A stretch of DNA of 64,000 nt from Salminus brasiliensis (lineage: Eukaryota > Chordata > Actinopteri > Characiformes > Bryconidae): contig NC_132878.1 in the NCBI RefSeq assembly GCF_030463535.1, positions 36,957,261 through 37,021,260 of the forward strand, given 5' to 3'. The notes beneath the pieces were generated by a model that saw nothing but the letters and a program-made list of their open reading frames with translations, had not been told where the DNA came from and did not search any database. This document shows positions 35,116-64,000 of this stretch, in pieces (position 1 is the stretch's first letter; each line of letters begins with the position of its first letter). Both the position numbers and the translations under genes were made by a program.

Positions 35116-36767
<1,652 letters not shown>

Positions 36768-37330
36768 AACTAAGCACCATGTCTGCTGATTGTTGGGACG
36801 AGGTTTGAGGAGAGTGTGTATCAAGCTGTGAATCTGCATCACCTGCTCTTTCCTAATAATGACTGTAAACAAGCAAGAACCCTAAGAAGCTAATTCCATA
36901 ACACGCTCATGGTGCGTCTGTCCATTTAAATAGAAGACAATTAGAAGCTTATTTCCAGGAATGTAGAGTCCTGTGTCTTTACATCATTCTATCTATTTCT
37001 GAAACCTGACCACTTCCGTTTTCTGCTCTGGGTTGTGAGTACTCTGCCAAATATGCTCATGTTGGGCTCACATGGGTGGAATGTGGACTAGGTGGGTTCC
37101 AGGTGTGAATGGGCTCTGAGTCCAGAGCCAACTCCGGTGTCCGGGTAGCAAAGAGGCCTTGTTCAATTCTTTCTTTGATCTTTTTTTTTATTTCAGTTTT
37201 TCATCTGATCTCATTCTTTTATCAAGGTCTTCCTCAGCAGTTCTGTAGTGATGAAGAGTAAAGTGTTAAGGTCAACAACAGAGGGACTAAAGGAGAACTG
37301 ACGCAGTTACAGTTGAGGTCTCCTGAAGAC
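36768..37330 (+). repeat. Partial spacer/promoter copy at the left edge of the Ig array
   Basis: From 'taagcaccatgtctgctgat' onwards the sequence matches the spacer between later units (compare 41049 on, 45539 on). This shows where the tandem array begins. About 1 kb of the standard spacer is absent to the left. The segment leads into the unit 1 promoter. Confidence 0.8.
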
Positions 37331-37333
37331 CAG

Positions 37334-37340
37334 TATAAAA
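37334..37340 (+). promoter_or_regulatory. TATA box, Ig unit 1
   Basis: TATAAAA in the conserved context gaccagTATAAAAgagag, 81 bp upstream of the start codon. The same motif recurs in all six units. Confidence 0.8.
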
Positions 37341-37420
37341 GAGAGACACACAGGCTGTGTGGTAGAGAGTGTGTGTGTGTTTCTCTTTGAGGGACATTAG
37401 TGTGTGTAGAAGAATCAGTG

Positions 37421-37535
37421 ATGATGGAGTGTTTGTATCTTTTGCTGGTTGTGTTTCACTTCACTGCAGGTAAGAGCAGATCTTTCAACCCTTCATCCAG
37501 AAGAATGTGTGTTTTTCTAATTCACAATAAGACAA

Positions 37536-37584
<49 letters not shown>

Positions 37585-40292
37585 GCTGTACTCTCTCAGT
37601 ACAGCAGTTCAGTGTGATTAAAGGACGTACTGGTGGTTCAGTTCTGCTGCCCTGCTCCTGCACTGACCTGCAGACCAAACCTCAGAGATTCAGCTGGACG
37701 ACTAAGAGAGGAGACGTGTTCAGTGCTGATCAGTACAGAGACCGACTTCAGCTCTTTAATAAAGACTCTCCTGCTAATCTCTCTCTGCTCATATCTGACC
37801 TGAGAGAAGAAGATAAAGGAACCTACAGGTGTGAGACTGAGAAGGAAAGCACAGGCATCAGACTATATGTTAAAGGTGAAGAATTTAAATATATGTTTCA
37901 GGATTGAAATTTGTACAAAACTAACAAACAAATCTACTGCATTTCTGACTTCAGTCTTTGATGTTCATCTCATTTCAGTCTTTAATCTTCGTCTCATTTC
38001 AGTCTTTTATCTTCATCTCATTTTAGTCTTTTATCTTCATCTCATTTCAGTCTTTTATCTTCATCTGATTTTAGTCTTTTATCTTCATCTCATTTCAGTC
38101 TTTAATCTTCATCTCATTTCAGTCTTTAATCTTCATCTCATTTCAGTCTTTTCTCTGATTTCACTCTTTAATCTTTGTCTCATTTCAGTCTTTTATCTTC
38201 GTCTCATTTTAGTCTTTTATCTTCATCTCATTTCAGTCTTTAATCTTCATCTCATTTCAGTCTTTTATCTAATTACCTGAAAACTTCAAAATGCTGCAGT
38301 TAGTAGAATCAAGGTCTGCAGCTGTTCTGATAAGTGGATTAATTGCGGGTCTGATTTTGGAGTCCAACAGAACAATAATTCTCAGAAGAATCTGATTAAA
38401 GGTCAGAGGTTTGGACTCTAGACACAAAGTTGAAGAAACGGGGAGAGGTGTCTAACTGCAGACGGGACTCTGGTCAGTCCTTTTAAGTAAACAGTGTCGT
38501 TTCCTGCTGTAGACAAAACAGAACGGCAGAAAAAGAGTATCTGACATCAGACAGCAGCTTCTTCAGTAACTGAGCTTCTGGTTGATTTATTCACACGTAT
38601 TCAGAGGACGAGTGAGACCAGTGTGAAAGTTCATGTAAATCCTCACTCTGCTCTTAAACTCCAGTCTTACTGGAGTAACTGCAGTTTCCTCGTGGTAGTT
38701 GAAGAAACACTGAACTGGCTCTGTTTGCAGAGGGCTTTGAAGGTTAAGCAGGAGCACAGAAGAACTGAAAGAAGCTCCCGTTCATTAAAGTCTTCATTAG
38801 AAAGTCTTTCAGCAGTTCAGATTCAGCAGTAGTTTGAACAGGACAACTATTCATGTGTGCTGATCTTTCATGTGTTTTGGATTTAGTCATTTCTGGAAGA
38901 GTAATACATGTAAAAGACCTTTGATGTTCATCCTTACAGTAATCTTTAGGGTCCAGTGTTTAAATATTAGATTGAATATTACACTGAAATATTGAGACAT
39001 GACTTATTTACCATTTGAATTCCAGGACTGAGACTTACTCGTGACTCACAGTTCAGTGACTCGTTCCCACCTCTGTTAAAGCAGTGAAGGTGAATAATCA
39101 GGTGAGAGCAGTGCTGATCTCTCCTAACTATAGCTTTCATTTCTGCAGCCTGTGATCTGATGAAGAGTGGAGGGATAGAGGAGGTGACGAGGATCCCAGG
39201 AGAATCTGTAGTCCTGCCCTGCTCCTGCACTGTCCTTCACTACAGACCCAGCACTGTTAAATGGACCTTTATACCATTAAGATCTGGAGGTCCTCCTTAT
39301 GTACAAATATACCCTGTACAGACTGGAAAACACAGAGGCAGAGTCACACTGACCAATCAGAACCCAGGAAACCTCTCTCTACACCTATCAGACCTGACTG
39401 AAGAGGATGAGGGAGTCTACAGGTGTTCAGTGCAGGGGGATTTAAAATATGTCAGACTTTATATTAAAGGTAAAACTGATTTTCCTGTAAAAACTGTGAG
39501 AATCATTATTAGAGACCAGTGTCCTGATTGATGATGATAAGGATGAAGTGTAAGCAGTCTGGAACCAGTTGAAAGTGTGTGTGTGTGTTTCAGTGAGAGA
39601 AACTTTTACAAAACATCCACCAGCATCTGAACCAGGGCCGCTTCACCCAACCACAGCAGCTCAACCTGCAGGTGAACTAACTGTCCATTTGAATCAGCTC
39701 TAATAGAGAGAGACATTTATTCAACTTAGTGATTTTCATTTACTGTACAGTCCTTAATTCTACAGTGCTGGGGTGTGTGTGTGTAGTTGGGGGAGAGTGG
39801 GGGGTTAAAAATGTGAGCAGTGTTTTGTTTAATGATGATAACTTTTACACACCTCTGGAGTACAGACCCAGCAGAAGGTCCATCAGAAGAGCCTCCAACT
39901 ACAGCCGTGACTGAAAGTGAGAGAATGATGTGAGTTCAGCGTCCTCATAGAGGCAGATTTACTAAAGCGTTTAACACATACTGAACATCCCATCAAAAGT
40001 ACAACTAGTGTTGAGAGGTCTGCTCTGAAGCTGAAGAAGCTCCTTTCTAAATCAATCACCATCATTAATATTGACTGCAGTTCTACATGTTGAATGTGTC
40101 CGAGATTACACACTCATCTACTGTTGCTGAGTGTGTGTGTCTGTGTGTGTTCTCTCTACAGGTGGTGTGTTGTACATTAGTCTTCAGAAAACACTCCTGA
40201 ACCAACACACACTTTCTAATTCTGAAGAACATCATCTCTCCCTTTTTCTAGACTCCTGCACACACACACACACACACACACACTGGTGTTGA
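37421..40292 (+). CDS. Ig array unit 1: secreted-type protein with two V-like Ig domains
   Basis: Exons: 37421-37469 (signal peptide MMECLYLLLVVFHFTA), 37585-37875 (D1), 39149-39469 (D2), 39594-39671 and 39866-39916 (Pro/Thr-rich stalk), 40162-40292 (tail). All junctions are GT-AG with phase 1 except the last exon, which completes a Ser codon; the total is 921 nt, 306 residues. D1 is the short type A (KRGDVFSADQ, ending GIRLYVK) with LLPCSC, W, and DKGTYRC. D2 has VLPCSC, W and DEGVYRC. Both domains have an N-glycosylation sequon NLS. The tail ends THWC-stop just after the CA repeat. V-set features suggest an immune recognition molecule of a fish multigene family (DICP- or CD300/pIgR-like are candidates), but I cannot assign the family. 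No transmembrane segment is visible. Confidence 0.8.
37538..37584 (+). repeat. (GT)n tract forming the D1 splice acceptor, unit 1
   Basis: About 20 GT dinucleotides run directly into the CAG acceptor of the D1 exon. Equivalent tracts of different length occur at 41818-41870 (unit 2), 47050-47083 (unit 3), 52067-52093 (unit 4), 57201-57236 (unit 5) and 61635-61687 (unit 6). Confidence 0.9.
37940..38275 (+). repeat. 24-bp intronic minisatellite, unit 1
   Basis: Tandem copies of a 24-bp unit near ttcagtctttaatcttcatc + tcat lie in the D1-D2 intron. Nearly every copy contains a T-rich run followed by TTTCAG, that is, a 3'-splice-site-like motif. Counterparts with more diverged units are at about 42290-42755, 47450-47690, 52505-52970, 57650-58115 and 62095-62565. 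Confidence 0.92.
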
Positions 40293-40319
40293 TCGTTCTG
40301 TTATTTTCATTGAGTTCAG

Positions 40320-40325
40320 AATAAA
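40320..40325 (+). other. Polyadenylation signal, Ig unit 1
   Basis: AATAAA lies 28 bp after the predicted stop codon of unit 1. Confidence 0.65.
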
Positions 40326-40677
40326 CATCAGTACGAGACTCATTTTACTGTCTTTATTTCTCATTCACTATAAAGTCACTAGTGGATCTGATCTCCTTCA
40401 GACAGAACAGCAGTGTGCTCCTGTTTCTGGAAGTGTTTTGAGGGTGTAATCCATCTAAAAGATCATGAAGAAAATCAAAGCTACTTTAGAATAGCAGAGA
40501 AACTCTGATCTCAGTGTGATCTTCAGTCCGACCCCCTCTAAATCACACACCTCTCTATAATGTGAACACTTCAACACTAGGATTGACTCTGTGCACTTAT
40601 TTCTTCTGAAGGGGTCATTGTGGATTGTGGGGTGGGGCTACTGAGCTGGATCTGTTGTATGTATTTCCACAAAAACA

Positions 40678-40690: not shown

Positions 40691-41605
40691 ACCCTGTGCT
40701 GTAACCCTGACTGCATTGCTCTTCTAACCATGTAGACCACCAACTGTGTGTGTGTGTCTTATCACATGTTTTCCACATACAGATAAATGTCAGTGTAGGG
40801 CTGGATGTCACAGTGTGGAGGATTCTACACTCACAGTTTAGGAAATATCTCTGACTGCTCTGATCTTCTTATGATGTTTGAATAAAGGTAAAGCGGAGTC
40901 ACTGTGTGGGAATTATAGACAGTGTTAATTATATACAGTTAACCCAACCCCTAAATGATGTACTGCCCTGTGCTTAACATTTGGAGTGGTGTTCTTTTCA
41001 TGAAACCCAGCCCCTTTTTTCCTCTTTGCTCAGTGTGTCCAAATAAGCTAAGCAGCATGTCTGCTGATTGTTGGGACGAGGTTTGAGGAGAGTGTGTGAA
41101 ATCTGCATCACCTGCTCTTTCCTAATAATGACTGTAAACAAGCAGGAACCCTAAGAAGCTAATTCCAGAACATGCTCATGGTGCGTCTGTCCATTTACTA
41201 ATGGCCCACTGTGAATCATAGAAGATGATTAGAAGCTTATGTGCAGGAATGTAGAGTCCTGTGTGTTCACTCTACAGTGTTTGCAGCATTCAATAACTAA
41301 CACTTGACCACTTCCTGCTTCTGCTCTGGGTTCTGAGTAAACACCCAAACCCTGCTGTTCGTTTCTCACACTGGTCTTCAACCACCATCTTCAGTGTCTG
41401 AGCTTATGCAGAGGTATGCAGAACTGGACATGAATGGTTTTAATATAGTGTAACTAGAGAAACAGATACCCATCTTTTACCTTCAGGACCCCTAAATCAC
41501 CAAATCCATCAGATTGGTAGTGATGAAGAGTGAAGTGTTAAAGTCAACAACAGAGGGACTAAAGGAGAACTGACGCAGTTACAGTTGAGGTTTCCTGAAG
41601 ACCAG

Positions 41606-41612
41606 TATAAAA
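41606..41612 (+). promoter_or_regulatory. TATA box, Ig unit 2
   Basis: TATAAAA in the same conserved context as unit 1, 87 bp upstream of the start codon. Confidence 0.8.
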
Positions 41613-41698
41613 GAGAGACACACAGGCTGTGTGGTAGAGTGTGTGTGTGTGTGTGTGTTTCTCTTTGAGGGACATTAGTGTGTGTAGAAGAATCAGTG

Positions 41699-41814
41699 AT
41701 GATGGAGTGTTTGTATCTTTTGCTGGTTGTGTTTCACTTCACTGCAGGTAAGAGCAGATCTTTCAAACCTTCATCCAGAGAAATGTGTGTTTTTCTAATT
41801 CACCATAAGACATG

Positions 41815-41870
<56 letters not shown>

Positions 41871-44051
41871 GTTGTACTCTCTCAGTACAGCAGTTCAGTG
41901 AAATTAAAGGACGTACTGGTGGTTCAGTTCTGCTGCCCTGCTCCTGCACTGACCTGCAGACCAAACCTCAGAGATTCGTTTGGAAGACTGTGAGGCAGGG
42001 GGAACTAGGAGAATTGACTGAGCTGTTCAGTGCTGATCAGTACAGAGACAGATTTCAGCTCTTTAATAAAGACTCTCCTGCTAATCTCTCTCTGCTCATT
42101 TCTGACCTGAGAGAAGAAGATGACAAATACTACAGGTGTGAGACTGAGAAGGAAAGCAGAGACTTCAGATTATATGTTAAAGGTGAAAAATTTAATTGAC
42201 ATAATTTTCAGGATTGAAAGTCATCTGAAGCACAAATCTGTACAAAACTAACAAACAACATACTAAAATTCTGCATTTATGATTTCAATCTTTTATCTAA
42301 TTTCAGTCTTTTATCTTGATCTGATTTCAGTCTTTAATCTTTGTATCATTTCGGTCTTTAATCTTTATCTCATGTAAGTCTTTTATCTTCATCTGATTTC
42401 AGTCTTTAATCTCCATCTCATTTCAGTCTTTTATATTTATGTGATTTCAGTCTTTTTATCTTTATCTGATTTTAGTTTATCTCAGTCTCATTTCAGTCTT
42501 TAATTTTCGTCTCATTTCAGTCTTTAATTTTTGTCTGATTTCAGTATTTTATATTTATCTGATTTCAGTCTCTTATCTTCATCTGATTTCAGTCTTTAAT
42601 CTCCGTCTCATTTCAGTATTTTATATTTATCTGATTTCAGTCTCTTATCTTCATCTGATTTCAGTCTTTAATCTTCATCTATTTTCAGTCTTTTATCTTT
42701 ATTTGATTTCAGTCTTTAATCTTTGTCTCATTTCTGTCTTTTATCTGATTACCTGAAAACTTCAAAATGCTGCAGTTAGTAGAATCGAAATCTGCAGCTG
42801 TTCTGATAAGTGGATCAATTGCGGGTCTGATTTTGGAGTCCAACAGAACAATAATTCTCAGGAGAAGAATCTGATTAAAGGTCAGAGGTTTGGACTCAAG
42901 ACACAAAGTTGAAGAAACGGGGAGAGGTGTCTGACTGCAGACGGGACTCTGGTCAGTCCTTTTAAGTAAACAGTGTCGTTTCCTGCTGTAGACTAAACAG
43001 AACCGCAGTAAAAGAGTATCTGACATCAGACAGCAGCTTCTTCAGTAACTGAGCTTCTGGTTGATTCATTCACATGTATTCAGAGGACGAGTGAGACCAG
43101 TGTGAAAGTTCATGTAATCCCTCACTCTGCTCTTAAACTCCAGTCTTACTGGAGTAACTGCAGTTTCCTCGTGGTAGTTGAAGAAACACTGAACTGGTCC
43201 TGTTTGCAGAGGGCTTTGAAGGTTAAGCAGGAGCACAGAAGAACTGAAAGAAGCTCCCGTTCATTAAAGTCTTCATTAGAAAGTCTTTCAGCAGTTCAGA
43301 TTCAGCAGTAGTTTGAACAGGACATCTATTCATGTGTGCTGATCTTTCATGTGTTTTGGATTTAGTCATTTCTGGAAGAGTAATACATGTAAAAGACCTT
43401 TGATGTTCATCCTTACAGTAATCTTTAGGGTCCAGTGTTTAAATATTAGATTGAATATTATAGTAAAATATTAAGACATGACTTATTTACCATTTGAATT
43501 CCAGGACTGAGACTTACTCGTGACTCACAGTTCAGTGACTCGTTCTCACCTCTGTTAAAGCAGTGAAGGTGAATAATCAGGTGAGTGCAGTGCTGATCTC
43601 TCCTAACTATAGCTTTCATTTCTGCAGCCTGTGATCTGATGAAGAGTGGAGGGATAGAGGAGGTGACGAGGATCCCAGGAGAATCTGTAGTCCTGCCCTG
43701 CTCCTGCACTGACCTTCACTACAGACCCAGCACTGTTAAATGGACCTTTATACCATTAAGATCTGGAGGTCCTCGTGATGTACAAATATACCCTGTACAG
43801 TCTGGAAAACACAGAGGCAGAGTCACACTGACCAATCAGAACACAGGAAACCTCTCTCTACACCTATCAGACCTGACTGAAGAGGATGAGGGAGACTACA
43901 GGTGTTCAGTGCAGCAGGATTATAAATATGTCAGACTTTATATTAAAGGTAAAACTGATTTTCCTGTAAAAACTGTCAGAATCATTATTAGAGACCCATG
44001 TCCTGATTGATGATGATGAAGATGAAGTGTATGCAGGCTGGAACCAGTTGA

Positions 44052-44091
<40 letters not shown>

Positions 44092-44770
44092 CAGTGAGAG
44101 AAACTTTTACAAAACATCCACCAGCATCTGAACCAGGGCCGCTTCACCCAACCACAGCAGCTCAACCAGCAGGTGAACTAACTGTCCATTTGAATCAGCT
44201 CTGATCGAGAGAGACATTTATTCAACTTAGTGATTTTCATTTACTGTACAGTCCTTAATTCTACAGTGCTGGGGTGTGTGTGTGTAGTTGGAGGAGAGTG
44301 GGGGGTTAAAAATGTGAGCGGTGTTTTGTTTAATGATGATAACTTCTACACACCTCTGGAGAACAGACCCAGAAGAACGTCCATCAGAAGAGCCTCCAAC
44401 TACAGCCGTGACTGAAAGTGAGAGAATGATGTGAGTTCAGCGTCCTCATAGAGGCAGATTTACTTAAGCGTTTAACACACACTGAACATCCCATCAAAAG
44501 TACAACTAGTGTTGAGAGGTCTGCTCTGAAGCTGAAGAAGCTCCTTTCTAAATCAATCACCATCATTAATATTGACTACAGTTCTACATGTTGAATGTGT
44601 CCGAGATTACACACTCATCTACTGTTGCTGAGTGTGTGTGTCTGTGTGTGTTCTCTCTACAGGTGGTGTGTTGTACATTAGTCTTCAGAAAACACTCCTG
44701 AACCAACACACACTTTCTAATTCTGAAGAACATCATCTCTCCCTTTTTCTAGACTCCTACACACACACAC

Positions 44771-44801
<31 letters not shown>

Positions 44802-44862
44802 GAATAAGAATAAAGATCAGTACGAGACTCATTTTACTGTCTTTATTTCTCATTCACTATAA
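41699..44862 (+). CDS. Ig array unit 2: two V-like Ig domains
   Basis: Exons: 41699-41747 (signal), 41871-42182 (D1, long type B), 43628-43948 (D2), 44095-44172 and 44367-44417 (stalk), 44663-44862 (tail); 1011 nt, 336 residues. Type B D1 carries a seven-residue longer loop (QGELGELTELFSADQ) and ends RDFRLYVK. Its F-strand motif is EEDDKYYRC, so the usual Gly of D-x-G-x-Y-x-C is Lys. Reading through the CA repeat keeps a frame that continues QNKNKDQYETHFTVFISHSL-stop. The AATAAA (44808-44813) lies before that stop, so the real 3' end is uncertain. D1 is identical to that of unit 6 at the protein level. Confidence 0.78.
42290..42755 (+). repeat. 24-bp intronic minisatellite, unit 2
   Basis: Same repeat family as in unit 1, with more AT-rich variants (ttatatttatctgatttcag). 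It is shared almost exactly with units 4, 5 and 6. Confidence 0.9.
44808..44813 (+). other. Polyadenylation signal, Ig unit 2
   Basis: AATAAA in cagaataagAATAAAgatcag, immediately after the CA repeat. It precedes the in-frame stop at 44860-44862. Confidence 0.55.
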
Positions 44863-46745: not shown

Positions 46746-46850
46746 CTTCCTCAACAGTTCTGTAGTGATGAAGAGTGAAGTGTTAAAGTCAACAACAGAG
46801 GGACTAAAGGAGAACTGACGCAGTTACAGTTGAGGTTTCCTGAAGACCAG

Positions 46851-46857
46851 TATAAAA
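46851..46857 (+). promoter_or_regulatory. TATA box, Ig unit 3
   Basis: TATAAAA in the conserved context, 77 bp upstream of the start codon. Confidence 0.8.
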
Positions 46858-46933
46858 GAGAGACACACAGGCTGTGTGGTAGAGTGTGTGTGTTTCTCTT
46901 TGAAGGACATTAGTGTGTGTAGAAGAATCAGTG

Positions 46934-47047
46934 ATGATGGAGTGTTTGTATCTTTTGCTGGTTGTGTTTCACTTCACTGCAGGTAAGAGCAGATCTTTCA
47001 ACCCTTCATCCAGAGAAATGTGTTTTTCTAATTCACAATAAGACAAG

Positions 47048-47083
<36 letters not shown>

Positions 47084-50000
47084 GCTGTACTCTCTCAGTA
47101 CAGCAGTTCAGTGTGATTACAGGACGTACTGGTGGTTCAGTTCTGCTGCCCTGCTCCTGTACTGACCTGCAGACCAAACCTCAGAGATTCAGCTGGACGA
47201 CTAATACAGGAGACGTGTTCAGTGCTGATCAGTACAGAGACCGACTTCAGCTCTTTAATGAAAACTCTCCTGCTAATCTCTCTCTGCTCATTTCTGACCT
47301 GAGAGAAAAAGATGAAGGACCCTACAGGTGTGAGACTGAGAAGGAAAGCACAGGCATCAGACTATATGTTAAAGGTGAAAAATTTAATTTATATTTTTCA
47401 GGATTGAAATTTGTACAAAACTTACAAACAAAATTCTAAAATACTGCATTTCTGATTTCAGTCTTTAATCTTTGACTCATTTCAGTCTTTTTTCTGATTT
47501 CAGGTCTTTAATCTTCATCTGATTTCAGTCTTTAATCTTCATCTCATTTCAGTCTTTTATCTGATTTCAGTCTCTTCAGCTTATTTCAGTCTTTTTCTAA
47601 TTTCAGTCTTTAATCTTCATCTCATTTCAGTCTTTTATCTTCGTCTGATTTCAGTCTTTTATCTTCATCTGATTTCAGTCTTTTATCGGATTACCTGAAA
47701 ACTTCAAAATGCTGCAGTTAGTAGAATCGAGGTCTGCAGCTGTTCTGATAAGTGGATTAATTGCGGGTCTGATTTTGGAGTCCAACAGAACAATAATTCT
47801 CAGAAGAATCTGATTAAAGGTCAGAGTGTTTGACCTTTCGCACTTGTTTGTGTTCGCACTTGTTTGTTTGTGTTGCACTTGTGTTTTGTATGCACTGTCT
47901 ATGTTGCACCATGGTCCTGGAGGAACGTTGTTTCGGTTCACTGTGTACTCTGTATGTAGTTGAAATGACAATAAAACCCACTTGACTTGACTTGACTTGA
48001 GGTTTGGACTTTAGACACAAAGTTGAAGAAACGGGGAGAGGTGTCTGACTACAGACGGGACTCTGGTCAGTCTTTTTAAGTAAACAGTGTCGTTTCCTGC
48101 TGTAGACTAAACAGAACTGCAATAAAACAGCAGCTTCTTCAGTAACTGAGCTTCTGGTTGATTCATTCACACGTATTTAGAGGACGGGTGAGACCAGTGT
48201 GAAAGTTCATGTAATCCCTCACTCTGCTCTTAAACTCCAGTCTTACTGGAGTAACTGCAGTTTCCTCGTGGTAGTTGAAGAAACACTGAACTGGTTCTGT
48301 TTGCAGAGGGCTTTGAAGGTTAAGCAGGAACACAGAAGAACTGAAAGCAGCTCCCGTTCATTAAAGTCTTCATTAGAAAGTCTTTCAGCAGTTCAGATTC
48401 AGCAGTAGTTTGAACAGGACAACTATTCATGTGTGCTGATCTTTCATGTGTTTTGGATTTAGTCATTTCTGGAAGAGTAATACATGTAAAAGACCTTTGA
48501 TGTTCATCCTTACAGTAATCTTTAGGGTCCAGTGTTTAAATATTAGATTGAATATTACAGTGAAATATTGAGACATGACTTATTTACCATTTGAATTCCA
48601 GGACTGAGACTTACTCGTGACTCACAGTTCAGTGACTCGTTCCCACCTCTGTTAAAGCAGTGAAGGTGAATAATCAGGTGAGTGCAGTGCTGATCTCTCC
48701 TAACTATAGCTTTCATTTCTGCAGGCTGTGATCTGATGAAGAGGGGAGGGACAGAGGACGTGACGAGGATCCCAGGAGAATCTGTAGTCCTGCCCTGCTC
48801 CTACACTGACCTTCACTACAGACCCAGCACTCTTACATGGAGCTTTAATTTATTAAGATCTGGAGGTCCTCGTGATGTACAAATATACCCTGTACAGACT
48901 GGAAAACACAGAGGCAGAGTCACACTGACCAATCAGAACCCAGGAAACCTCTCTCTACACCTATCAGACCTGACTGAAGAGGATGAGGGAGTCTACAGGT
49001 GTTCAGTGCAGGGGGGTTTTAAATATGTCAGACTTTATATTAAAGGTAAAACTGATTTTCCTGTAAAAACTTTGAGAATCATTATTAGAGACCAGTGTCC
49101 TGATTGATGATGATGAGGATGAATTGTAAGCAGTCTGGAACCGGTTGATAGTGTGTGTGTTTGTGTGTAAAAGACCTTTGATGTTCATCCTTACAGTAAT
49201 CTTTAGGGTCCAGTGTTTAAATATTAGATTGAATATTACACTGAAATATTGAGACATGACTTATTTACCATTTGAATTCCAGGACTGAGACTTACTCGTG
49301 ACTCACAGTTCAGTGACTCGTTCTCACCTCTGTTAAAGCAGTGAAGGTGAATAATCAGGTGAGTGCAGTGCTGATCTCTCCTAACTATAGCTTTCATTTC
49401 TGCAGCCTGTGATCTGATGAAGAGTGGAGAGATAGAGGAGGTGACGAGGATCTCAGGAGAATCTGTAGTCCTGCCCTGCTCCTGCACTGACCTTCACTCC
49501 AAACCCAGCACTGTTACATGGAGCTTTAATTTATTAAGATCTGGAGGTCCTCGTGATGTACAAATATACCCTGAACAGACTGGAAAACACAGAGGCATAG
49601 TCACACTGACCAATCAGAACACAGGAGACCTCTCTCTACACCTATCAGACCTGACTGAAGAGGATGAGGGAGACTACAGGTGTTCAGTGCAGGGGGATTA
49701 TAAAGATGTCAGACTTTATATTAAAGGTAAAACTGATTTTCCTGTAAAAACTGTGAGAATCATTATTAGAGACCCATGTCCTGATTGATGATGATGAAGA
49801 TGAAGTGTATGCAGGCTGGAACCAGGTGAAAGTGTGTGTGTGTGTTTCAGTGAGAGAAACTTTTACAAAACATCCACCAGCATCTGAACCAGGGCCGCTT
49901 CACTCAACCACAGCAGCTCAACCAGCAGGTGAACTAACTGTCCATTTGAATCAGCTCTGATAGACAGAGACATTTATTCAACTTAGTGATTTTCATTTAC

Positions 50001-50512: not shown

Positions 50513-50560
<48 letters not shown>

Positions 50561-51947: not shown

Positions 51948-54900
51948 ATGATGGAGTGTTTGTATCTTTTGCTGGTTGTGTTTCATTTCACTGCAGGTAA
52001 GAGCAGATCTTTCAAACCTTCATCCAGAGAAATGTGTGTTTTTCTAATTCACCATAAGACATGAAGTGTGTGTGTGTGTGTGTGTGTGTGCAGGTTGTAC
52101 TCTCTCAGTACAGCAGTTCAGTGAAATTAAAGGACGTACTGGTGGTTCAGTTCTGCTGCCCTGCTCCTGCACTGACCTGCAGACCAAACCTCAGAGATTC
52201 GTTTGGAAGACTAGGAGGCAGGGGGAACTAGGAGAATTGACTGAGCTGTTCAGTGCTGATCAGTACAGAGACAGATTTCAGCTCTTTAATAAAGACTCTC
52301 CTGCTAATCTCTCTCTGCTCATTTCTGACCTGAGAGAAGACGATGAAGGACCCTACAGGTGTGAGACTGAGAAGGAAAGCAGAGACTTCAGATTATATGT
52401 TAAAGGTGAAGAATTTAATTGACATAATTTTCAGGATTGAAAGTCATCTGAAGCACAAATCTGTACAAAACTAACAAACAACATACTAAAATTCTGCATT
52501 TATGATTTCAATCTTTTATCTAATTTCAGTCTTTTATCTTCATCTGATTTCAGTCTTTAATCTTTGTATCATTTCGGTCTTTAATCTTTATCTCATGTAA
52601 GTCTTTTATCTTCATCTGATTTCAGTCTTTAATCTCCATCTCATTTCAGTCTTTTATATTTATGTGATTTCAGTCTTTTTATCTTTATCTGATTTTAGTT
52701 TATCTCAGTCTCATTTCAGTCTTTAATTTTCGTCTCATTTCAGTCTTTAATTTTTGTCTCATTTCAGTATTTTATATTTATCTGATTTCAGTCTCTTATC
52801 TTCATCTGATTTCAGTCTTTAATCTCCGTCTCATTTCAGTATTTTATATTTATCTGATTTCAGTCTCTTATCTTCATCTGATTTCAGTCTTTAATCTTCA
52901 TCTATTTTTTTAGTCTTTTATCTTTATTTGATTTCAGTCTTTAATCTTTGTCTCATTTCTGTCTTTTATCTGATTACCTGAAAACTTCAAAATGCTGCAG
53001 TTAGTAGAATCGAAATCTGCAGCTGTTCTGATAAGTGGATCAATTGCAGGTCTGATTTTGGAGTCCAACAGAACAATAATTCTCAGGAGAAGAATCTGAT
53101 TAAAGGTCAGAGGTTTGGACTCAAGACACAAAGTTGAAGAAACGGGGAGAGGTGTCTGACTGCAGACGGGACTCTGGTCAGTCTTTTTAAGAAAACGGTG
53201 TCGTTTCCTGCTGTAGACTAAACAGAACCGCAGTAAAAGAGTATCTGACATCAGACAGCAGCTTCTTCAGTAACTGAGCTTCTGGTTGATTCATTCACAC
53301 GTATTCAGAGGACGAGTGAGACCAGTGTGAAAGTTCATGTAATCCCTCACTCTGCTCTTAAACTCCAGTCTTACTGGAGTAACTGCAGTTTCCTCGTGGT
53401 AGTTGAAGAAACACTGAACTGGTTCTGTTTGCAGAGGGCTTTGAAGGTTAAGCAGGAGCACAGAAGAACTGAAAGAAGCTCCCGTTCATTAAAGTCTTCA
53501 TTAGAAAGTCTTTCAGCGGTTCAGATTCAGCAGTAGTTTGAACAGGACAACTATTCATGTGTGCTGATCTTTCATGTGTTTTGGATTTAGTCATTTCTGG
53601 AAGAGTAATACATGTAAAAGACCTCTGATATTCATCCTTACAGTAATCTTTAGGGTCCAGTGTTTAAATATTAGATTGAATATTACAATGAAATATTGAG
53701 ACATGGCTTATTTACCATTTGAATTCCAGGACTGAGACTTACTCGTGACTCGCAGTTCAGTGACTCGTTCTCACCTCTGTTAAAGCAGTGAAGGTGAATA
53801 ATCAGGTGAGTGCAGTGCTGATCTCTCCTAACTATAGCTTTCATTTCTGCAGCCTGTGATCTGATGAAGAGTAGAGGGACAGAGAACGTGACGAGGATCC
53901 CAGGAGAATCTGTAGTCCTGCCCTGCTCCTGCACTGACCTTCACTCCAAACCCAGCACTGTTACATGGAGCTTTAATTTTTTAAGATCTGGAGGTCCTTG
54001 TGATGTACAAATATACCCTGAACAGACTGGAAAACACAGAGGCAGAGTCACACTGACCAATCAGAACCCAGGAAACCTCTCTCTACACCTATCAGACCTG
54101 ACTGAAGAGGATGAGGGAGTCTACAGGTGTTCAGTGCAGGGGGGTTTTAAATATGTCAGACTTTATATTAAAGGTAAAACTGATTTTCCTGTAAAAACTT
54201 TGAGAATCATTATTAGAGACCAGTGTCCTGATTGATGATGATGAGGATGAATTGTAAGCAGTCTGGAACCGGTTGATAGTGTGTGTGTTTGTGTGTAAAA
54301 GACCTCTGATGTTCATCCTTACAGTAATCTTTAGGGTCCAGTGTTTAAATATTAGATTGAATATTACACTGAAATATTGAGACATGACTTATTTACCATT
54401 TGAATTCCAGGACTGAGACTTACTCGTGACTCACAGTTCAGTGACTCGTTCTCACCTCTGTTAAAGCAGTGAAGGTGAATAATCAGGTGAGTGCAGTGCT
54501 GATCTCTCCTAACTATAGCTTTCATTTCTGCAGCCTGTGATCTGATGAAGAGTGGAGAGATAGAGGAGGTGACGAGGATCTCAGGAGAATCTGTAGTCCT
54601 GCCCTGCTCCTGCACTGACCTTCACTCCAAACCCAGCACTGTTACATGGAGCTTTAATTTATTAAGATCTGGAGGTCCTCGTGATGTACAAATATACCCT
54701 GAACAGACTGGAAAACACAGAGGCAGAGTCACACTGACCAATCAGAACACAGGAGACCTCTCTCTACACCTATCAGACCTGACTGAAGAGGATCAGGGAG
54801 TCTACAGGTGTTCAGTGCAGGGGGATTATAAAGATGTCAGACTTTTTATTAAAGGTAAAACTGATTTTCCTGTAAAAACTGTGAGAATCATTATTAGAGA

Positions 54901-55631
54901 CCAGTGTCCTGATTGATGATGATGAAGATGAAGTGTATGCAGGCTGGAACCAGGTGAAAGTGTGTGTGTGTGTTTCAGTGAGAGAAACTTTTACAAAACA
55001 TCCACCAGCATCTGAACCAGGGCCGCTTCACTCAACCACAGCAGCTCAACCAGCAGGTGAACTAACTGTCCATTTGAATCAGCTCTGATAGAGAGAGACA
55101 TTTATTCAACTTAGTGATTTTCATTTACTGTACAGTCCTTAATTCTACAGTGCTGGGGTGTGTGTGTGTAGTTGGGGGAGAGTGGGGGGTTAAAAATGTG
55201 AGCGGTGTTTTGTTTAATGATGATAACTTTTACACACCTCTGGAGAACAGACCCAGCAGAAGGTCCATCAGAAAAGCCTCCAACTACAGCCGTGAATGAA
55301 AGTGAGAGAATGATGTGAGTTCAGCGTCCTCATAGAGGCAGATTTACTAAAGCGTTTAACACACACTGAACATCCCATCAAAAGTACAACTAGTGTTGAG
55401 AGGTCTGCTCTGAAGCTGAAGAAGCTCCTTTCTAAATCAATCACCATCATTAATATTGACTACAGTTCTACATGTTGAATGTGTCCGAGATTACACACTC
55501 ATCTACTGTTGCTGAGTGTGTGTGTCTGTGTGTGTTCTCTCTACAGGTGGTGTGTTGTACATTAGTCTTCAGGAAACATTCCTGAACCAACACACACTTT
55601 CTAATTCTGAAGAACATCTTTTTCTAGACTC

Positions 55632-55701
<70 letters not shown>

Positions 55702-55704
55702 TAA
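51948..55704 (+). CDS. Ig array unit 4: three Ig domains (D1, D2a, D2b)
   Basis: Exons: 51948-51996 (signal), 52094-52405 (D1, long type B), 53853-54173 (D2a), 54534-54854 (D2b), 54979-55056 and 55251-55301 (stalk), 55547-55704 (tail); 1290 nt, 429 residues. D1 has KTRRQGELGELTELF and REDDEGPYRC. D2a is lettered SRGTENVTRIPG and D2b SGEIEEVTRISG. The D2a-D2b step is again 681 bp with the same junction as unit 3. The tail frame through the CA repeat ends THTE-stop, just before AATAAA (55706-55711), so this unit has a conventional 3' end. One stalk codon differs from the other units (Asn for Thr). Confidence 0.8.
52505..52970 (+). repeat. 24-bp intronic minisatellite, unit 4
   Basis: Nearly the same array as in units 2, 5 and 6. 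Confidence 0.9.
53853..54534 (+). repeat. D2 duplication in unit 4, copy 1 (681-bp step)
   Basis: Same length and junction as in unit 3, so the two duplications are not independent events. Confidence 0.88.
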
Positions 55705-55705
55705 G

Positions 55706-55711
55706 AATAAA
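55706..55711 (+). other. Polyadenylation signal, Ig unit 4
   Basis: AATAAA directly after the predicted stop codon. Confidence 0.65.
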
Positions 55712-56076: not shown

Positions 56077-56991
56077 ACCCTGTGCTATAACCCTGACTGC
56101 ACTGCTCTTCTAACCATGTAGACCACCAACTGTGTGTGTGTGTCTTATCACATGTTTCCTACATACAGATAAATGTCAGTGTAGGGCTGGATCTCACAGT
56201 GTGGAGGATTCTACACTCACAGTTTAGGAAATATATCTGACTGCTCTGATCTTCTTATGATGTTTGAATAAAGGTAAAGCAGAGTCACTGTGTGGGAATT
56301 ATAGACAGTGTTAATTATATACAGTTAACCCAACCCCTAAATGATGTACTGCCCTGTGCTTAACATTTGGAGTGGTGTTCTTTTCATGAAACCCAGCCCC
56401 TTTTTTCCTCTTTGCTCAGTGTGTCCAAATAAGCTAAGCAGCATGTCTGCTGATTGTTGGGACGAGGTTTGAGGAGAGTGTGTGAAATCTGCATTACCTG
56501 CTCTTTCCTAATAATGACTGTAAACAGGCAAGAACCCTAAGAAGCTAATTCCAGAACATGCTCATGGTGCGTCTGTCCATTTACTAATGGCCCACTGTGA
56601 ATCATAGAAGATGATTAGAAGCTTATGTGCAGGAATGTAGAGTCCTGTGTGTTCACTCTACAGTGTTTGCAGCATTCAATAACTAACACTTGACCACTTC
56701 CTGCTTCTGCTCTGGGTTCTGAGTAAACACCCAAACCCTGCTGTTCGTTTCTCACACTGGTCTTCAACCACCATCTTCAGTGTCTGAGCTTATGCAGAGG
56801 TATGCAGAACTGGACATGAATGGTTTTAATATAGTGTAACTAGAGAAACAGATACCCATCTTTTACCTTCAGGACCCCTAAATCACCAAATCCATCAGAT
56901 TGGTAGTGATGAAGAGTGAAGTGTTAAAGTCAACAACAGAGGGACTAAAGGAGAACTGACGCAGTTACAGTTGAGGTTTCCTGAAGACCAG

Positions 56992-56998
56992 TATAAAA
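56992..56998 (+). promoter_or_regulatory. TATA box, Ig unit 5
   Basis: TATAAAA in the conserved context, 85 bp upstream of the start codon. Confidence 0.8.
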
Positions 56999-57082
56999 GA
57001 GAGACACACAGGCTGTGTGGTAGAGTGTGTGTGTGTGTGTGTTTCTCTTTGAGGGACATTAGTGTGTGTAGAAGAATCAGTG

Positions 57083-57198
57083 ATGATGGAGTGTTTGTAT
57101 CTTTTGCTGGTTGTGTTTCACTTCACTGCAGGTAAGAGCAGATCTTTCAAACCTTCATCCAGAGAAATGTGTGTTTTTCTAATTCACAATAAGACAAG

Positions 57199-57236
<38 letters not shown>

Positions 57237-59385
57237 GTTGTACTCTCTCAGGACAGCAGTTCAGTGAAATTAAAGGACGTACTGGTGGTTCAGTTCTGCT
57301 GCCCTGCTCCTGCACTGACCTGCAGACCAAACCTCAGAGATTCGTTTGGAAGACTGTGAGGCAGGGGGAACTAGGAGAATTGACTGAGCTGTTCAGTGCT
57401 GATCAGTACAGAGACAGATTTCAGCTCTTTGATAAAGACTCTCCTGCTAATCTCTCTCTGCTCATTTCTGACCTGAGAGAAGAAGATGAAGGACCCTACA
57501 GGTGTGAGACTGAGAAGGAAAGCAGAGACTTCAGATTATATGTTAAAGGTGAAAAATTTAATTGACATAATTTTCAGGATTGAAAGTCATCTGAAGCACA
57601 AATCTGTACAAAACTAACATACAACATACTAAAATTCTGCATTTATGATTTCAATCTTTTATCTAATTTCAGTCTTTTATCTTGATCTGATTTCAGTCTT
57701 TAATCTTTGTATCATTTCGGTCTTTAATCTTTATCTCATGTAAGTCTTTTATCTTCATCTGATTTCAGTCTTTAATCTCCATCTCATTTCAGTCTTTTAT
57801 ATTTATGTGATTTCAGTCTTTTTATCTTTATCTGATTTTAGTTTATCTCAGTCTCATTTCAGTCTTTAATTTTCGTCTCATTTCAGTCTTTAATTTTTGT
57901 CTCATTTCAGTATTTTATATTTATCTGATTTCAGTCTCTTATCTTCATCTGATTTCAGTCTTTAATCTCCGTCTCATTTCAGTATTTTATATTTATCTGA
58001 TTTCAGTCTCTTATCTTCATCTGATTTCAGTCTTTAATCTTCATCTATTTTTTTGTAGTCTTCTATCTTTATTTGATTTCAGTCTTTAATCTTTGTCTCA
58101 TTTCTGTCTTTTATCTGATTACCTGAAAACTTCAAAATGCTGCAGTTAGTAGAATCGAAATCTGCAGCTGTTCTGATAAGTGGATCAATTGCAGGTCTGA
58201 TTTTGGAGTCCAACAGAACAATAATTCTCAGGAGAAGAATCTGATTAAAGGTCAGAGGTTTGGACTCAAGACACAAAGTTGAAGAAACGGGGAGAGGTGT
58301 CTGACTGCAGACGGGACTCTGGTCAGTCTTTTTAAGAAAACGGTGTCGTTTCCTGCTGTAGACAAAACAGAACCGCAGTAAAAGAGTATCTGACATCAGA
58401 CAGCAGCTTCTTCAGTAACTGAGCTTCTGGTTGATTCATTCACACGTATTTAGAGGACGAGTGAGACCAGTCTCCAGTCTTACTGGAGTAACTGCAGTTT
58501 CCTCGTGGTAGTTGAAGAAACACTGAACTGGCTCTGTTTGCAGAGGGCTTTGAAGGTTAAGCAGGAGCACAGAAGGACTGAAAGAAGCTCCCGTTCATTA
58601 AAGTCTTCATTAGAAAGTCTTTCAGCAGTTCAGATTCAGCAGTAGTTTGAACAGGACAACTATTCATGTGTGCTGATCTTTCATGTGTTTTGGATTTAGT
58701 CATTTCTGGAAGAGTAATACATGTAAAAGACCTCTGATATTCATCCTTACAGTAATCTTTAGGGTCCAGTGTTTAAATATTAGATTGAATATTACACTGA
58801 AATATTGAGACATGACTTATTTACCATTTGAATTCCAGGACTGAGACTTACTCGTGACTCACAGTTCAGTGACTCGTTCCCACCTCTGTTAAAGCAGTGA
58901 AGGTGAATAATCAGGTGAGTGCAGTGCTGATCTCTCCTAACTATAGCTTTCATTTCTGCAGCCTGTGATCTGATGAAGAGTGGAGAGATAGAGGAGGTGA
59001 CGAGGATCTCAGGAGAATCTGTAGTCCTGCCCTGCTCCTGCACTGACCTTCACTACAAACCCAGCACTCTTACATGGAGCTTTATTTCATTAAGATCTGG
59101 AGGTCCTCCTTATGTACAAATATATCCTGTACAGACTGGAAAACACAGAGGCAGAGTCACACTGACCAATCAGAACACAGGAAACCTCTCTCTACACCTA
59201 TCAGACCTGACTGAAGAGGATCAGGGAGTCTACAGGTGTTCAGTGCAGGGGGATTATAAAGATGTCAGACTTTTTATTAAAGGTAAAACTGATTTTCCTG
59301 TAAAAACTGTGAGAATCATTATTAGAGACCAGTGTCCTGATTGATGAGGATGAGAATGAAGTGTATGCAGGCTGGAACCAGTTGA

Positions 59386-59427
<42 letters not shown>

Positions 59428-60076
59428 CAGTGAGAGAAACTTTTACAAAACATCCACCAGCATCTGAACCAGGGCCGCTTCACTCAACCACAGCAGCTCA
59501 ACCAGCAGGTGAACTAACTGTCCATTTGAATCAGCTCTGATAGAGAGATACATTTATTCAACTTAGTGATTTTTATTTACTGTACAGTCCTTAATTCTAC
59601 AGTGCTGTGTGTGTAGTTGGGGGAGGGTGGGGGTTAAAAATGTGAGCTGTGTTTTGTTTAATGATGATAACTTTTACACACCTCTGGAGAACAGACCCAG
59701 CAGAAGGTCCATCAGAAGAGCCTCCAACTACAGCCGTGACTGAAAGTGAGAGAATGATGTGAGTTCAGCGTCCTCATAGAGGCAGATTTACTAAAGCGTT
59801 TAACACACACTGAACATCCCATCAAAAGTACAACTAGTGTTGAGAGGTCTGCTCTGAAGCTGAAGAAACTCCTTTCTAAATCAATCACCATCATTAATAT
59901 TGACTACAGTTCTACATGTTGAATGTGTCAGAGATTACACACTCATCTACTGTGTGTGTGTCTGTGTGTGTTCTCTCTACAGGTGGTGTGTTGTACATTA
60001 GTCTTCAGAAAACACTCCTGAACCAACACACACCTTCTAATTCTGAAGAACATCATCTCTCCCTTTTTCTAGACTC

Positions 60077-60134
<58 letters not shown>

Positions 60135-60137
60135 TAA
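57083..60137 (+). CDS. Ig array unit 5: two V-like Ig domains
   Basis: Exons: 57083-57131 (signal), 57237-57548 (D1, long type B), 58962-59282 (D2), 59431-59508 and 59695-59745 (stalk), 59983-60137 (tail); 966 nt, 321 residues. D1 reads CTLSGQQFSEIK (Gly for Val in the other copies) and EEDEGPYRC. The first intron is 105 bp and has no in-frame stop, so an intron-retaining transcript would stay open from the signal exon into D1. The tail frame ends THTE-stop before AATAAA (60139-60144). A deletion of about 40 bp in the D1-D2 intron near 58471 is unique to this unit. Confidence 0.8.
57650..58115 (+). repeat. 24-bp intronic minisatellite, unit 5
   Basis: Nearly the same array as in units 2, 4 and 6. 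Confidence 0.9.
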
Positions 60138-60138
60138 G

Positions 60139-60144
60139 AATAAA
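60139..60144 (+). other. Polyadenylation signal, Ig unit 5
   Basis: AATAAA directly after the predicted stop codon. Confidence 0.65.
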
Positions 60145-60509: not shown

Positions 60510-61426
60510 ACCCTGTGCTATAACCCTGACTGCACTGCTCTTCTAACCATGTAGACCACCAACTGTGTGTGTGTGTGTCTTATCACATGTTTCCTACATA
60601 CAGATAAATGTCAGTGTAGGGCTGGATCTCACAGTGTGGAGGATTCTACACTCACAGTTTAGGAAATATCTCTGAGTGCTCTGATCTTCTTATGATGTTT
60701 GAATAAAGGTAAAGCAGAGTCACTCTGTGGGAATTATAGACAGTGTTAATTATATACAGTTAACCCAACCCCTAAATGATGTACTGCCCTGTGCTTAACA
60801 TTTGGAGTGGTGTTCTTTTCATGAAACCCAGCCCCTTTTTTCCTCTTTGCTCAGTGTGTCCAAATAAGCTAAGCAGCATGTCTGCTGATTGTTGGGACGA
60901 GGTTTGAGGAGAGTGTGTGAAATCTGCATTACCTGCTCTTTCCTAATAATGACTGTAAACAAGCAAGAACCCTAAGAAGCTAATTCCAGAACATGCTCAT
61001 GGTGCGTCTGTCCATTTACTAATGGCCCACTGTGAATCATAGAAGATGATTAGAAGCTTATGTGCAGGAATGTAGAGTCCTGTGTGTTCACTCTGCAGTG
61101 TTTGCAGCATTCAATAACTAACACTTGACCACTTCCTGCTTCTGCTCTGGGTTCTGAGTAAACACCCAAACCCTGCTGTTCGTTTCTCACACTGGTCTTC
61201 AACCACCATCTTCAGTGTCTGAGCTTATGCAGAGGTATGCAGAACTGGACATGAATGGTTTTAATATAGTGTAACTAGAGAAACAGATACCCATCTTTTA
61301 CCTTCAGGACCCCTAAATCACCAAATCCATCAGATTGGTAGTGATGAAGAGTGAAGTGTTAAAGTCAACAACAGAGGGACTAAAGGAGAACTGACGCAGT
61401 TACAGTTGAGGTTTCCTGAAGACCAG

Positions 61427-61433
61427 TATAAAA
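61427..61433 (+). promoter_or_regulatory. TATA box, Ig unit 6
   Basis: TATAAAA in the conserved context, 85 bp upstream of the start codon. Confidence 0.8.
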
Positions 61434-61517
61434 GAGAGACACACAGGCTGTGTGGTAGAGTGTGTGTGTGTGTGTGTTTCTCTTTGAGGGACATTAGTGT
61501 GTGTAGAAGAATCAGTG

Positions 61518-61633
61518 ATGATGGAGTGTTTGTATCTTTTGCTGGTTGTGTTTCACTTCACTGCAGGTAAGAGCAGATCTTTCAAACCTTCATCCAGAGA
61601 AATGTGTGTTTTTCTAATTCACCACAAGACATG

Positions 61634-61687
<54 letters not shown>

Positions 61688-63868
61688 GTTGTACTCTCTC
61701 AGTACAGCAGTTCAGTGAAATTAAAGGACGTACTGGTGGTTCAGTTCTGCTGCCCTGCTCCTGCACTGACCTGCAGACCAAACCTCAGAGATTCGTTTGG
61801 AAGACTGTGAGGCAGGGGGAACTAGGAGAATTGACTGAGCTGTTCAGTGCTGATCAGTACAGAGACAGATTTCAGCTCTTTAATAAAGACTCTCCTGCTA
61901 ATCTCTCTCTGCTCATTTCTGACCTGAGAGAAGAAGATGACAAATACTACAGGTGTGAGACTGAGAAGGAAAGCAGAGACTTCAGATTATATGTTAAAGG
62001 TGAAAAATTTAATTGACATAATTTTCAGGATTGAAAGTCATCTGAAGCACAAATCTGTACAAAACTAACAAACAACATACTAAAATTCTGCATTTATGAT
62101 TTCAATCTTTTATCTAATTTCAGTCTTTTATCTTGATCTGATTTCAGTCTTTAATCTTTGTATCATTTCGGTCTTTAATCTTTATCTCATGTAAGTCTTT
62201 TATCTTCATCTGATTTCAGTCTTTAATCTCCATCTCATTTCAGTCTTTTATATTTATGTGATTTCAGTCTTTTTATCTTTATCTGATTTTAGTTTATCTC
62301 AGTCTCATTTCAGTCTTTAATTTTCGTCTCATTTCAGTCTTTAATTTTTGTCTGATTTCAGTATTTTATATTTATCTGATTTCAGTCTCTTATCTTCATC
62401 TGATTTCAGTCTTTAATCTCCGTCTCATTTCAGTATTTTATATTTATCTGATTTCAGTCTCTTATCTTCATCTGATTTCAGTCTTTAATCTTCATCTATT
62501 TTCAGTCTTTTATCTTTATTTGATTTCAGTCTTTAATCTTTGTCTCATTTCTGTCTTTTATCTGATTACCTGAAAACTTCAAAATGCTGCAGTTAGTAGA
62601 ATCGAAATCTGCAGCTGTTCTGATAAGTGGATCAATTGCGGGTCTGATTTTGGAGTCCAACAGAACAATAATTCTCAGGAGAAGAATCTGATTAAAGGTC
62701 AGAGGTTTGGACTCAAGACACAAAGTTGAAGAAACGGGGAGAGGTGTCTGACTGCAGACGGGACTCTGGTCAGTCCTTTTAAGTAAACAGTGTCGTTTCC
62801 TGCTGTAGACTAAACAGAACCGCAGTAAAAGAGTATCTGACATCAGACAGCAGCTTCTTCAGTAACTGAGCTTCTGGTTGATTCATTCACATGTATTCAG
62901 AGGACGAGTGAGACCAGTGTGAAAGTTCATGTAATCCCTCACTCTGCTCTTAAACTCCAGTCTTACTGGAGTAACTGCAGTTTCCTCGTGGTAGTTGAAG
63001 AAACACTGAACTGGTCCTGTTTGCAAAGGGCTTTGAAGGTTAAGCAGGAGCACAGAAGAACTGAAAGAAGCTCCCGTTCATTAAAGTCTTCATTAGAAAG
63101 TCTTTCAGCAGTTCAGATTCAGCAGTAGTTTGAACAGGACATCTATTCATGTGTGCTGATCTTTCATGTGTTTTGGATTTAGTCATTTCTGGAAGAGTAA
63201 TACATGTAAAAGACCTTTGATGTTCATCCTTACAGTAATCTTTAGGGTCCAGTGTTTAAATATTAGATTGAATATTATAGTAAAATATTAAGACATGACT
63301 TATTTACCATTTGAATTCCAGGACTGAGACTTACTCGTGACTCACAGTTCAGTGACTCGTTCTCACCTCTGTTAAAGCAGTGAAGGTGAATAATCAGGTG
63401 AGTGCAGTGCTGATCTCTCCTAACTATAGCTTTCATTTCTGCAGCCTGTGATCTGATGAAGAGTGGAGAGATAGAGGAGGTGACGAGGATCCCAGGAGAA
63501 TCTGTAGTCCTGCCCTGCTCCTGCACTGACCTTCACTACAGACCCAGCACTGTTAAATGGACCTTTATACCATTAAGATCTGGAGGTCCTCGTGATGTAC
63601 AAATATACCCTGTACAGTCTGGAAAACACAGAGGCAGAGTCACACTGACCAATCAGAACACAGGAAACCTCTCTCTACACCTATCAGACCTGACTGAAGA
63701 GGATGAGGGAGACTACAGGTGTTCAGTGCAGCAGGATTATAAATATGTCAGACTTTATATTAAAGGTAAAACTGATTTTCCTGTAAAAACTGTCAGAATC
63801 ATTATTAGAGACCCATGTCCTGATTGATGATGATGAAGATGAAGTGTATGCAGGCTGGAACCAGTTGA

Positions 63869-63908
<40 letters not shown>

Positions 63909-63989
63909 CAGTGAGAGAAACTTTTACAAAACATCCACCAGCATCTGAACCAGGGCCGCTTCACCCAACCACAGCAGCTCAACCAGCAG
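61518..63989 (+). CDS. Ig array unit 6: two V-like Ig domains, 3' end outside the window
   Basis: Exons seen: 61518-61566 (signal), 61688-61999 (D1, long type B), 63445-63765 (D2), 63912-63989 (first stalk exon). The second stalk exon and tail lie beyond 64000. D1 is identical in protein sequence to unit 2, including the unusual EEDDKYYRC. D2 differs from unit 2 at one residue near its start (SGEIEE for SGGIEE). Introns are also almost identical to those of unit 2, pointing to a very recent copy or conversion event. Confidence 0.78.
62095..62565 (+). repeat. 24-bp intronic minisatellite, unit 6
   Basis: By eye identical, or nearly so, to the unit 2 array. Confidence 0.9.
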
Positions 63990-64000
63990 GTGAACTAACT

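Follow-up and report, generated by a model that had tools for sequence, protein, structure and literature searches.

The nearest functional precedent in fish for the locus described here is, by analogy and as far as the available sections of its description go, the carp SITR, a family in which we claim no membership for our genes. Those sections describe a protein with two Ig domains and a signal peptide, without a transmembrane (TM) segment and with multigene relatives, which is secreted and involved in the NO response that follows a parasite (PMC3031540). Its C-proximal domain carries two Cys pairs and a WCR motif, and the same sections give for CD300 a W-C motif with a second disulphide (PMC3031540). 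NILT genes, in the accessible portion of the source, form a tight cluster of V-type Ig receptors with phase-1 introns and an ITIM exon in phase 0, and their domains carry CX3C, CX6C or CX7C (PMC3022915). The available part of a preprint on CEACAM1 describes an ITIM receptor beside putative decoy copies, with exchange of sequence between copies and a binding exon that is less conserved than the introns (preprint PMC13278318). A search of titles and abstract starts, with subscription papers mostly outside its reach, found no paper on an array of such Ig genes beside NEK1, which is a weak negative.

We analysed a 64-kb window (the whole stretch of DNA under study, C1:36957261-37021260, where C1 is contig NC_132878.1 of the Salminus brasiliensis genome), and genome-wide searches covered 1.07 Gb in 103 contigs. 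The window holds six head-to-tail units, whose TATA-to-TATA spacings of 4272, 5245, 5000, 5141 and 4435 bases agree with the 4.27, 5.25, 5.00, 5.14 and 4.44 kb given by an earlier, sequence-only reading of this DNA. That reading also expected the array to continue past the window, and extension to the right by a genome search with the D1 exon gave nine units in one orientation, with nine TATA motifs and nine signal-peptide exons confirmed; units 7-9 lie to the right of the window, up to C1:37036528. An array by chance is excluded, because aligned segments of the units are 88.7-100% identical; the unit flanks are mostly 97-99% identical. The features are given below, in window positions unless prefixed with C1.

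37330..40331, plus strand: unit 1; TATA 37330; exon 1 (signal peptide) 37421-37469; D1 37585-37875; intron-2 minisatellite 37950-38270; D2 39149-39469
Unit 1, 3' part, plus strand: exon 4 39594-39671; exon 5 39866-39916 (alternative donor +10 bases); exon 6 from 40162; (CA)n 40259-40283; AATAAA near 40320
41602..44862, plus strand: unit 2; TATA 41602; exon 1 41699-41747; D1 41871-42182; intron-2 minisatellite 42292-42746; D2 43628-43948
Unit 2, 3' part, plus strand: exon 4 44095-44172; exon 5 44367-44417; exon 6 from 44663; (CA)n 44759-44801
46847..50618, plus strand: unit 3 (three Ig domains); TATA 46847; exon 1 46934-46982; D1 47084-47374; intron-2 minisatellite 47451-47687; D2a 48725-49045; D2b 49406-49726
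Unit 3, 3' part, plus strand: exon 4 49851-49928; exon 5 50123-50173; exon 6 from 50419; (CA)n 50516-50557
51847..55711, plus strand: unit 4 (three Ig domains); TATA 51847; exon 1 51948-51996; D1 52094-52405; intron-2 minisatellite 52518-52971; D2a 53853-54173; D2b 54534-54854
Unit 4, 3' part, plus strand: exon 4 54979-55056; exon 5 55251-55301; exon 6 from 55547; (CA)n 55635-55698
56988..60144, plus strand: unit 5; TATA 56988; exon 1 57083-57131; D1 57237-57548; intron-2 minisatellite 57658-58116; D2 58962-59282
Unit 5, 3' part, plus strand: exon 4 59431-59508; exon 5 59695-59745; exon 6 from 59983; (CA)n 60080-60131
61423..64000, plus strand: unit 6, cut by the window end; TATA 61423; exon 1 61518-61566; D1 61688-61999; intron-2 minisatellite 62109-62563; D2 63445-63765; exon 4 63912-63989
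C1:37021443 and C1:37021742, plus strand: matches to exons 5 and 6 of unit 6, just past the window end
C1:37035267-37035341, plus strand: TM exon of unit 9
C1:37036409-37036528, plus strand: ITIM exon of unit 9

Units 1-8 follow one plan: the TATA box and signal peptide lead into D1, a single D2 V-set exon or a pair of them, stalk exons and a short last exon. Units 1-5 were modelled in full and units 6-8 are known by exon matches, those of units 7 and 8 covering signal, D1, D2, stalk, exon 5 and exon 6. The earlier claim of an intact promoter, signal peptide and open exons stood up, the TATA box, signal-peptide exon, open D1 exon and exon 4 being present in 6/6 window units ('promoter' being a term taken from the DNA alone). 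The signal-peptide exon, MMECLYLLLVVFHFTAG, is common to these units, with one silent difference in unit 4, and the poly(A) signal was likewise recovered, exons 5 and 6 and one AATAAA each occurring in all five units whose 3' end lies inside the window. Units 3 and 4 carry two D2 exons each and the others one, giving eight in the window, while the nine-unit array has eleven; Pfam V-set scored above its curated cut-off in 6/6 window ORFs scanned, in agreement with genes of two or three V-set Ig domains. There were no stops or frame-breaking indels in the six window unit models, and the single indel seen in their exons 1, D1, D2 and 4 is of 21 bases and in frame. Intron 2 of the six window units contains a 24-base minisatellite of about 10-19 copies, many repeats of which contain TTTCAG, resembling a 3' splice acceptor, and exon 6 of each complete window unit contains a (CA)n microsatellite of 12-32 copies beside the poly(A) signal.

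On its left the array adjoins NEK1, as had been proposed, the first kinase exon matching solved NEK1 with an E of 2e-13; in human, CLCN3 is the neighbour of NEK1. Directly left of unit 1 is an ORF (36187-36546) with no Pfam match, which we take to resemble the end of a Tc1-type transposase. To the right, the array is followed by a TRIM-type gene, with RING and B-box in one ORF and PRY-SPRY in another (C1:37041932-37042834 and 37047241-37047782), and 114 kb left of the window a broken D1-like copy in two pieces, one of them with stops, occupies C1:36843037-36843326 on the minus strand. The window was empty in tRNA scans and in Rfam scans at the gathering threshold, and among 25 pattern matches in viral contigs and 19 in GTDB contigs no relative was confirmed.

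Unit 9, outside the window, has TM and cytoplasmic exons where units 1-8 end at exons 5-6. Its sequence follows that of the other units as far as intron 4, the last matched base being C1:37034883 (37034890 in one alignment). Beyond that point it continues with a stalk exon, a TM exon (VIGVLTTVLLLLLLGVLVFICWRRRG) and a pair of cytoplasmic exons whose product ends in TVSDGVTYSTIAHRN...TEYACIKNLNT. Exon 4 is present twice in this unit, and the frame, once spliced, runs through 391 residues without a stop. Within the tail, VTYSTI fits the ITIM consensus as given in the accessible portion of PMC3022915, and TEYACI is a second YxxI tyrosine motif. TM and ITIM exons were found in only one of the nine array units, and a genome-wide search with the unit-9 tail returned unit 9 only, a looser first pass having given three candidates. 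Judged by these exons, unit 9 encodes a putative cell-surface inhibitory ("brake") receptor.

Units 1-8 gave no convincing TM exon, in the full models of units 1-5 or the exon matches of units 6-8, and searches of these units with the TM exons of the family found no match. Against the window, the unit-9 TM exon had its best match (E 0.028) at position 11450, outside the array. No hydrophobic stretch fitting an exon was seen by eye in units 1-6, where the candidate helices rejected on inspection were GT-repeat or minisatellite frames, an intron 4 stretch (VIFIYCTVLNSTVLGCVCV), GT-rich frames directly upstream of exon 6, and other intronic or flanking stretches. For exon 5, two donors separated by 10 bases are possible (splice point at the slash), neither of which adds a membrane helix. 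With AAA/GTGAGA all introns are in phase 1, and the tail contains VLYISL and a (Thr-His)n run from the CA repeat; with this donor the reading frame passes the AATAAA in units 2 and 3, and we therefore prefer, tentatively, GAT/GTGAGT, whose short ending, WCVVH, has matches in five window units as well as in units 6-8. This is the favoured form of the predicted secreted ending. Units 1-8 look secreted, that is, TM-less. The description of the array as soluble-looking holds for units 1-6, from DNA alone, but not for unit 9.

NILT membership was the first lead for placing the array. The likeness lies in clustered V-type Ig receptors and, in unit 9, phase-1 introns with a phase-0 ITIM exon, which is a weak one and common in Ig receptors. 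However, the extra NILT cysteine pair, sought as two Cys between W38 and R62, was present in 0/36 aligned domains of the array and its related cluster (two rows had one Cys), and because the CX3C/CX6C/CX7C pair is absent the array is not filed under NILT. Wcisel et al. 2023 reportedly placed a zebrafish NILT cluster on chromosome 1.

Membership in SITR, pIgR or CD300 was dropped as well, their W-C motif (W38 followed by Cys) occurring in 0/36 domains. The SITR plan of two Ig domains without a TM segment fits the DNA of units 1, 2 and 5, whereas units 3 and 4 have three Ig domains and unit 9 has a TM exon; the WCR motif and two Cys pairs are absent here, and the available sections on SITR describe no ITIM neighbour (PMC3031540). 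The best sequence-profile matches in the PDB were pIgR (E 3e-26) and JAML (E 3e-15), but the pIgR score sums five domains of 14-23 bits each, and the W-C motif seen in its PDB alignments is absent here. CEACAM1, as far as the accessible part of the preprint shows, offers an independent parallel, without any claim of membership, in its ITIM receptor with presumed decoys, variable binding exon and exchange between copies; it belongs to another family and another vertebrate class, and its decoys are membrane forms, whereas those here look secreted. In our rating the array belongs to a clustered family of fish Ig receptors with one tandem branch that looks secreted, and it is set apart from NILT, SITR, pIgR and CD300 by their described Cys hallmarks. 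To that extent the proposal of an undescribed expanded family may hold, but the family is not isolated, as a related TM/ITIM cluster lies on the same contig.

The genome search with D1 gave 52 matches in all, among them nine D1 (82-100% identity) and eleven D2 in the array, 24 at C1:33.81-33.95 Mb (38-57% identity to array D1), one on C7, the two pieces of the broken copy left of the window, and five weak matches on C11, C15 and C29; a profile of the window domains gave 24 further matches in a 160-kb stretch at 33.8 Mb of C1 and two on C7. This cluster, about 3 Mb from the array, contains related Ig domains, TM exons and ITIM-type tails. For two of these tails the resemblance to that of unit 9 was a tblastn match (51%, E 1e-7, and 37%, E 5e-4); a motif scan added a third. 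It shares with the array V-set domains bearing an N-terminal Cys and CxC, and differs from it in occupying both strands and in having TM exons, which array units 1-8 lack. The V-set profile matched 36/36 domains of the 36-row alignment (E <= 0.01), with cysteines C1 in 34, C24 in 35, C26 in 35 and C92 in 36, a hallmark of N-terminal Cys, CxC and F-strand Cys that was read off the same 36 rows in which it was counted. Two window domains have an odd Cys count, D2a of unit 3 (48725-49045) having lost the second Cys of CxC (C26) and D2a of unit 4 (53853-54173) having gained a Cys before strand C'.

A tree of 44 domains, 36 of which are in the alignment (two short matches, one from the cluster and one from C7, were dropped from both), placed the nine D1 in one group (98/99) and the eleven D2 in another (99/99). 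One cluster domain joined D2 with modest support and long branches (87/75), and a single group of all array domains was not rejected (AU P 0.33). By its domains and tail, the array is of common ancestry with a TM/ITIM receptor family, whichever of the two endings came first. Units 1-8 look like secreted offshoots of an ITIM receptor family, because unit 9 and the cluster 3 Mb away carry TM/ITIM-type tails.

Variation among the copies was compared between exons and introns in six aligned window units, of which units 3 and 4 were each represented by a single D2 module. Variable sites numbered 38/291 in D1, 28/321 in D2 and 20/562 in the non-repetitive part of intron 2 nearest D2, so that D1 and D2 are both more variable than the intron beside D2 (Fisher P 5e-7 and 0.0018); when the comparison takes in the whole of non-repetitive intron 2, the P for D2 is 0.006. 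Intron 3 beside D2 is also raised, at 10/124 sites. The excess divergence of D1 is largely a split into two types, only 10/291 sites being variable within units 2, 4, 5 and 6. Ig exons that are more divergent than their introns would point to a contest over a binding surface.

The selection tests ignore descent and conversion. Across the eight window copies of D2, 29 codons have residue-changing differences and one a silent difference; counted as changes, there are 34 amino-acid changing to 3 silent, where 9-11 silent would be expected (P 0.0008-0.007 against simulated neutral change, transition weights 1-4). With units 7-9 included, the eleven copies gave 40:5 (P 0.004-0.02), weaker than the window-only test. 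D1 had no amino-acid excess in the six window units (31:8, P 0.18-0.45); its long type gave 13:1 in seven copies (P 0.06-0.11) and, pooled with D2 in a combination chosen after the data were seen, P 0.0005-0.005 over 59 changes. D2 has 14 transitions to 23 transversions, versus 8 to 1 in the flank upstream, a pattern that could, alternatively, reflect old variation imported by conversion. Four-gamete conflicts, found in 111/351 site pairs of the window D2 copies and 248/528 of all eleven, show mosaic exons or recurrent change. An AF2 model of D2 reached pLDDT 90.3 with window and cluster domains, versus pLDDT 39 with the 14 window domains alone. On this model, variable residues make up 10/27 in strands C, C', F and G, 11/26 in adjoining loops, 3/17 in strands A', B, D and E, and 8/36 elsewhere; the tendency of variable sites to lie on the C-C'-F-G face and in its loops does not reach significance (P 0.056) and is suggestive only.

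We propose, with about even confidence, that the locus comprises eight secreted paralogues and one membrane ITIM receptor, the secreted copies acting as soluble decoys or modulators. We favour a soluble competitor because the seemingly secreted copies match the ectodomain plan of the adjacent ITIM receptor and change mainly in their Ig exons. The array would have arisen when an inhibitory V-set receptor gene, or a secreted derivative of it, was recently duplicated in tandem. The copies without TM exon retain the signal peptide, D1-D2 module and first stalk exon of the receptor, but close with exons 5-6 and a poly(A) signal of their own, in place of the further stalk, TM and ITIM exons of the receptor. 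Presuming that they are transcribed and their products secreted, they would most likely bind the same or related ligands as the unit-9 receptor, and may compete as soluble decoys or modulate the brake. Exchange between copies would shuffle short D2 blocks while selection would favour new Ig surfaces, possibly with a pathogen as driver.

A pathogen could instead be the ligand itself, the secreted units binding it directly rather than sharing the ligand of unit 9, which we consider less likely though tenable. Such a role would be in line with the carp SITR, a two-Ig protein without TM for which the available sections of PMC3031540 describe secretion and a part in the NO response to a parasite, and diversifying change in D2 is also compatible with it. 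However, next to an ITIM receptor of the same ectodomain plan a shared ligand is the simpler reading, and unit 9 has a D1 that is 98.7-99.0% identical in DNA to those of units 7 and 8.

It is doubtful that the units are simply young duplicates without a common function, products of neutral tandem expansion of which some are turning into pseudogenes. The copies are indeed young, as their near-identical flanks indicate, and plain conversion could explain the mosaic pattern; a (CA)n run lies in a possible coding end, one exon-5 donor gives overrunning frames, and the D2 copy of unit 3 without C26 lacks a family cysteine. Yet the six window unit models contain no stop or frame-breaking indel and the frame of unit 9 is intact, while the greater variation of Ig exons than introns and the bias of D2 towards amino-acid change are the reverse of neutral drift.

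Clustered protocadherins, in which variable units are spliced to common 3' exons, suggest a further arrangement, namely one composite locus of nine promoter-plus-ectodomain cassettes, eight of them self-sufficient for a secreted protein, whose Ig exons would be spliced either to their own secreted ending or, by read-through and in frame, to a single 3' TM/ITIM constant region in unit 9. If true, an innate inhibitory receptor would here have a protocadherin-like design, with ectodomains diversified by exchange between copies and selection. We regard it as improbable. In its favour, TM and ITIM exons turned up in a single unit of the nine, and exon 4 of 6/6 window units has the same end phase as the exon preceding the unit-9 TM exon, so that such joins would stay in frame; the phase match is weak, phase-1 exons being frequent in genes for Ig receptors. 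Against it, an AATAAA is present in every one of the five complete window units, and read-through would have to bypass as many as eight poly(A) sites over a distance of up to about 40 kb.

In conclusion, the reading we prefer remains that of secreted decoys or modulators beside a membrane ITIM receptor. If it is right, an inhibitory receptor lies beside its own secreted, fast-changing copies, and the decoy idea becomes testable at one locus. The locus would also add a secreted tandem branch to a fish V-set family with an N-terminal Cys and CxC.
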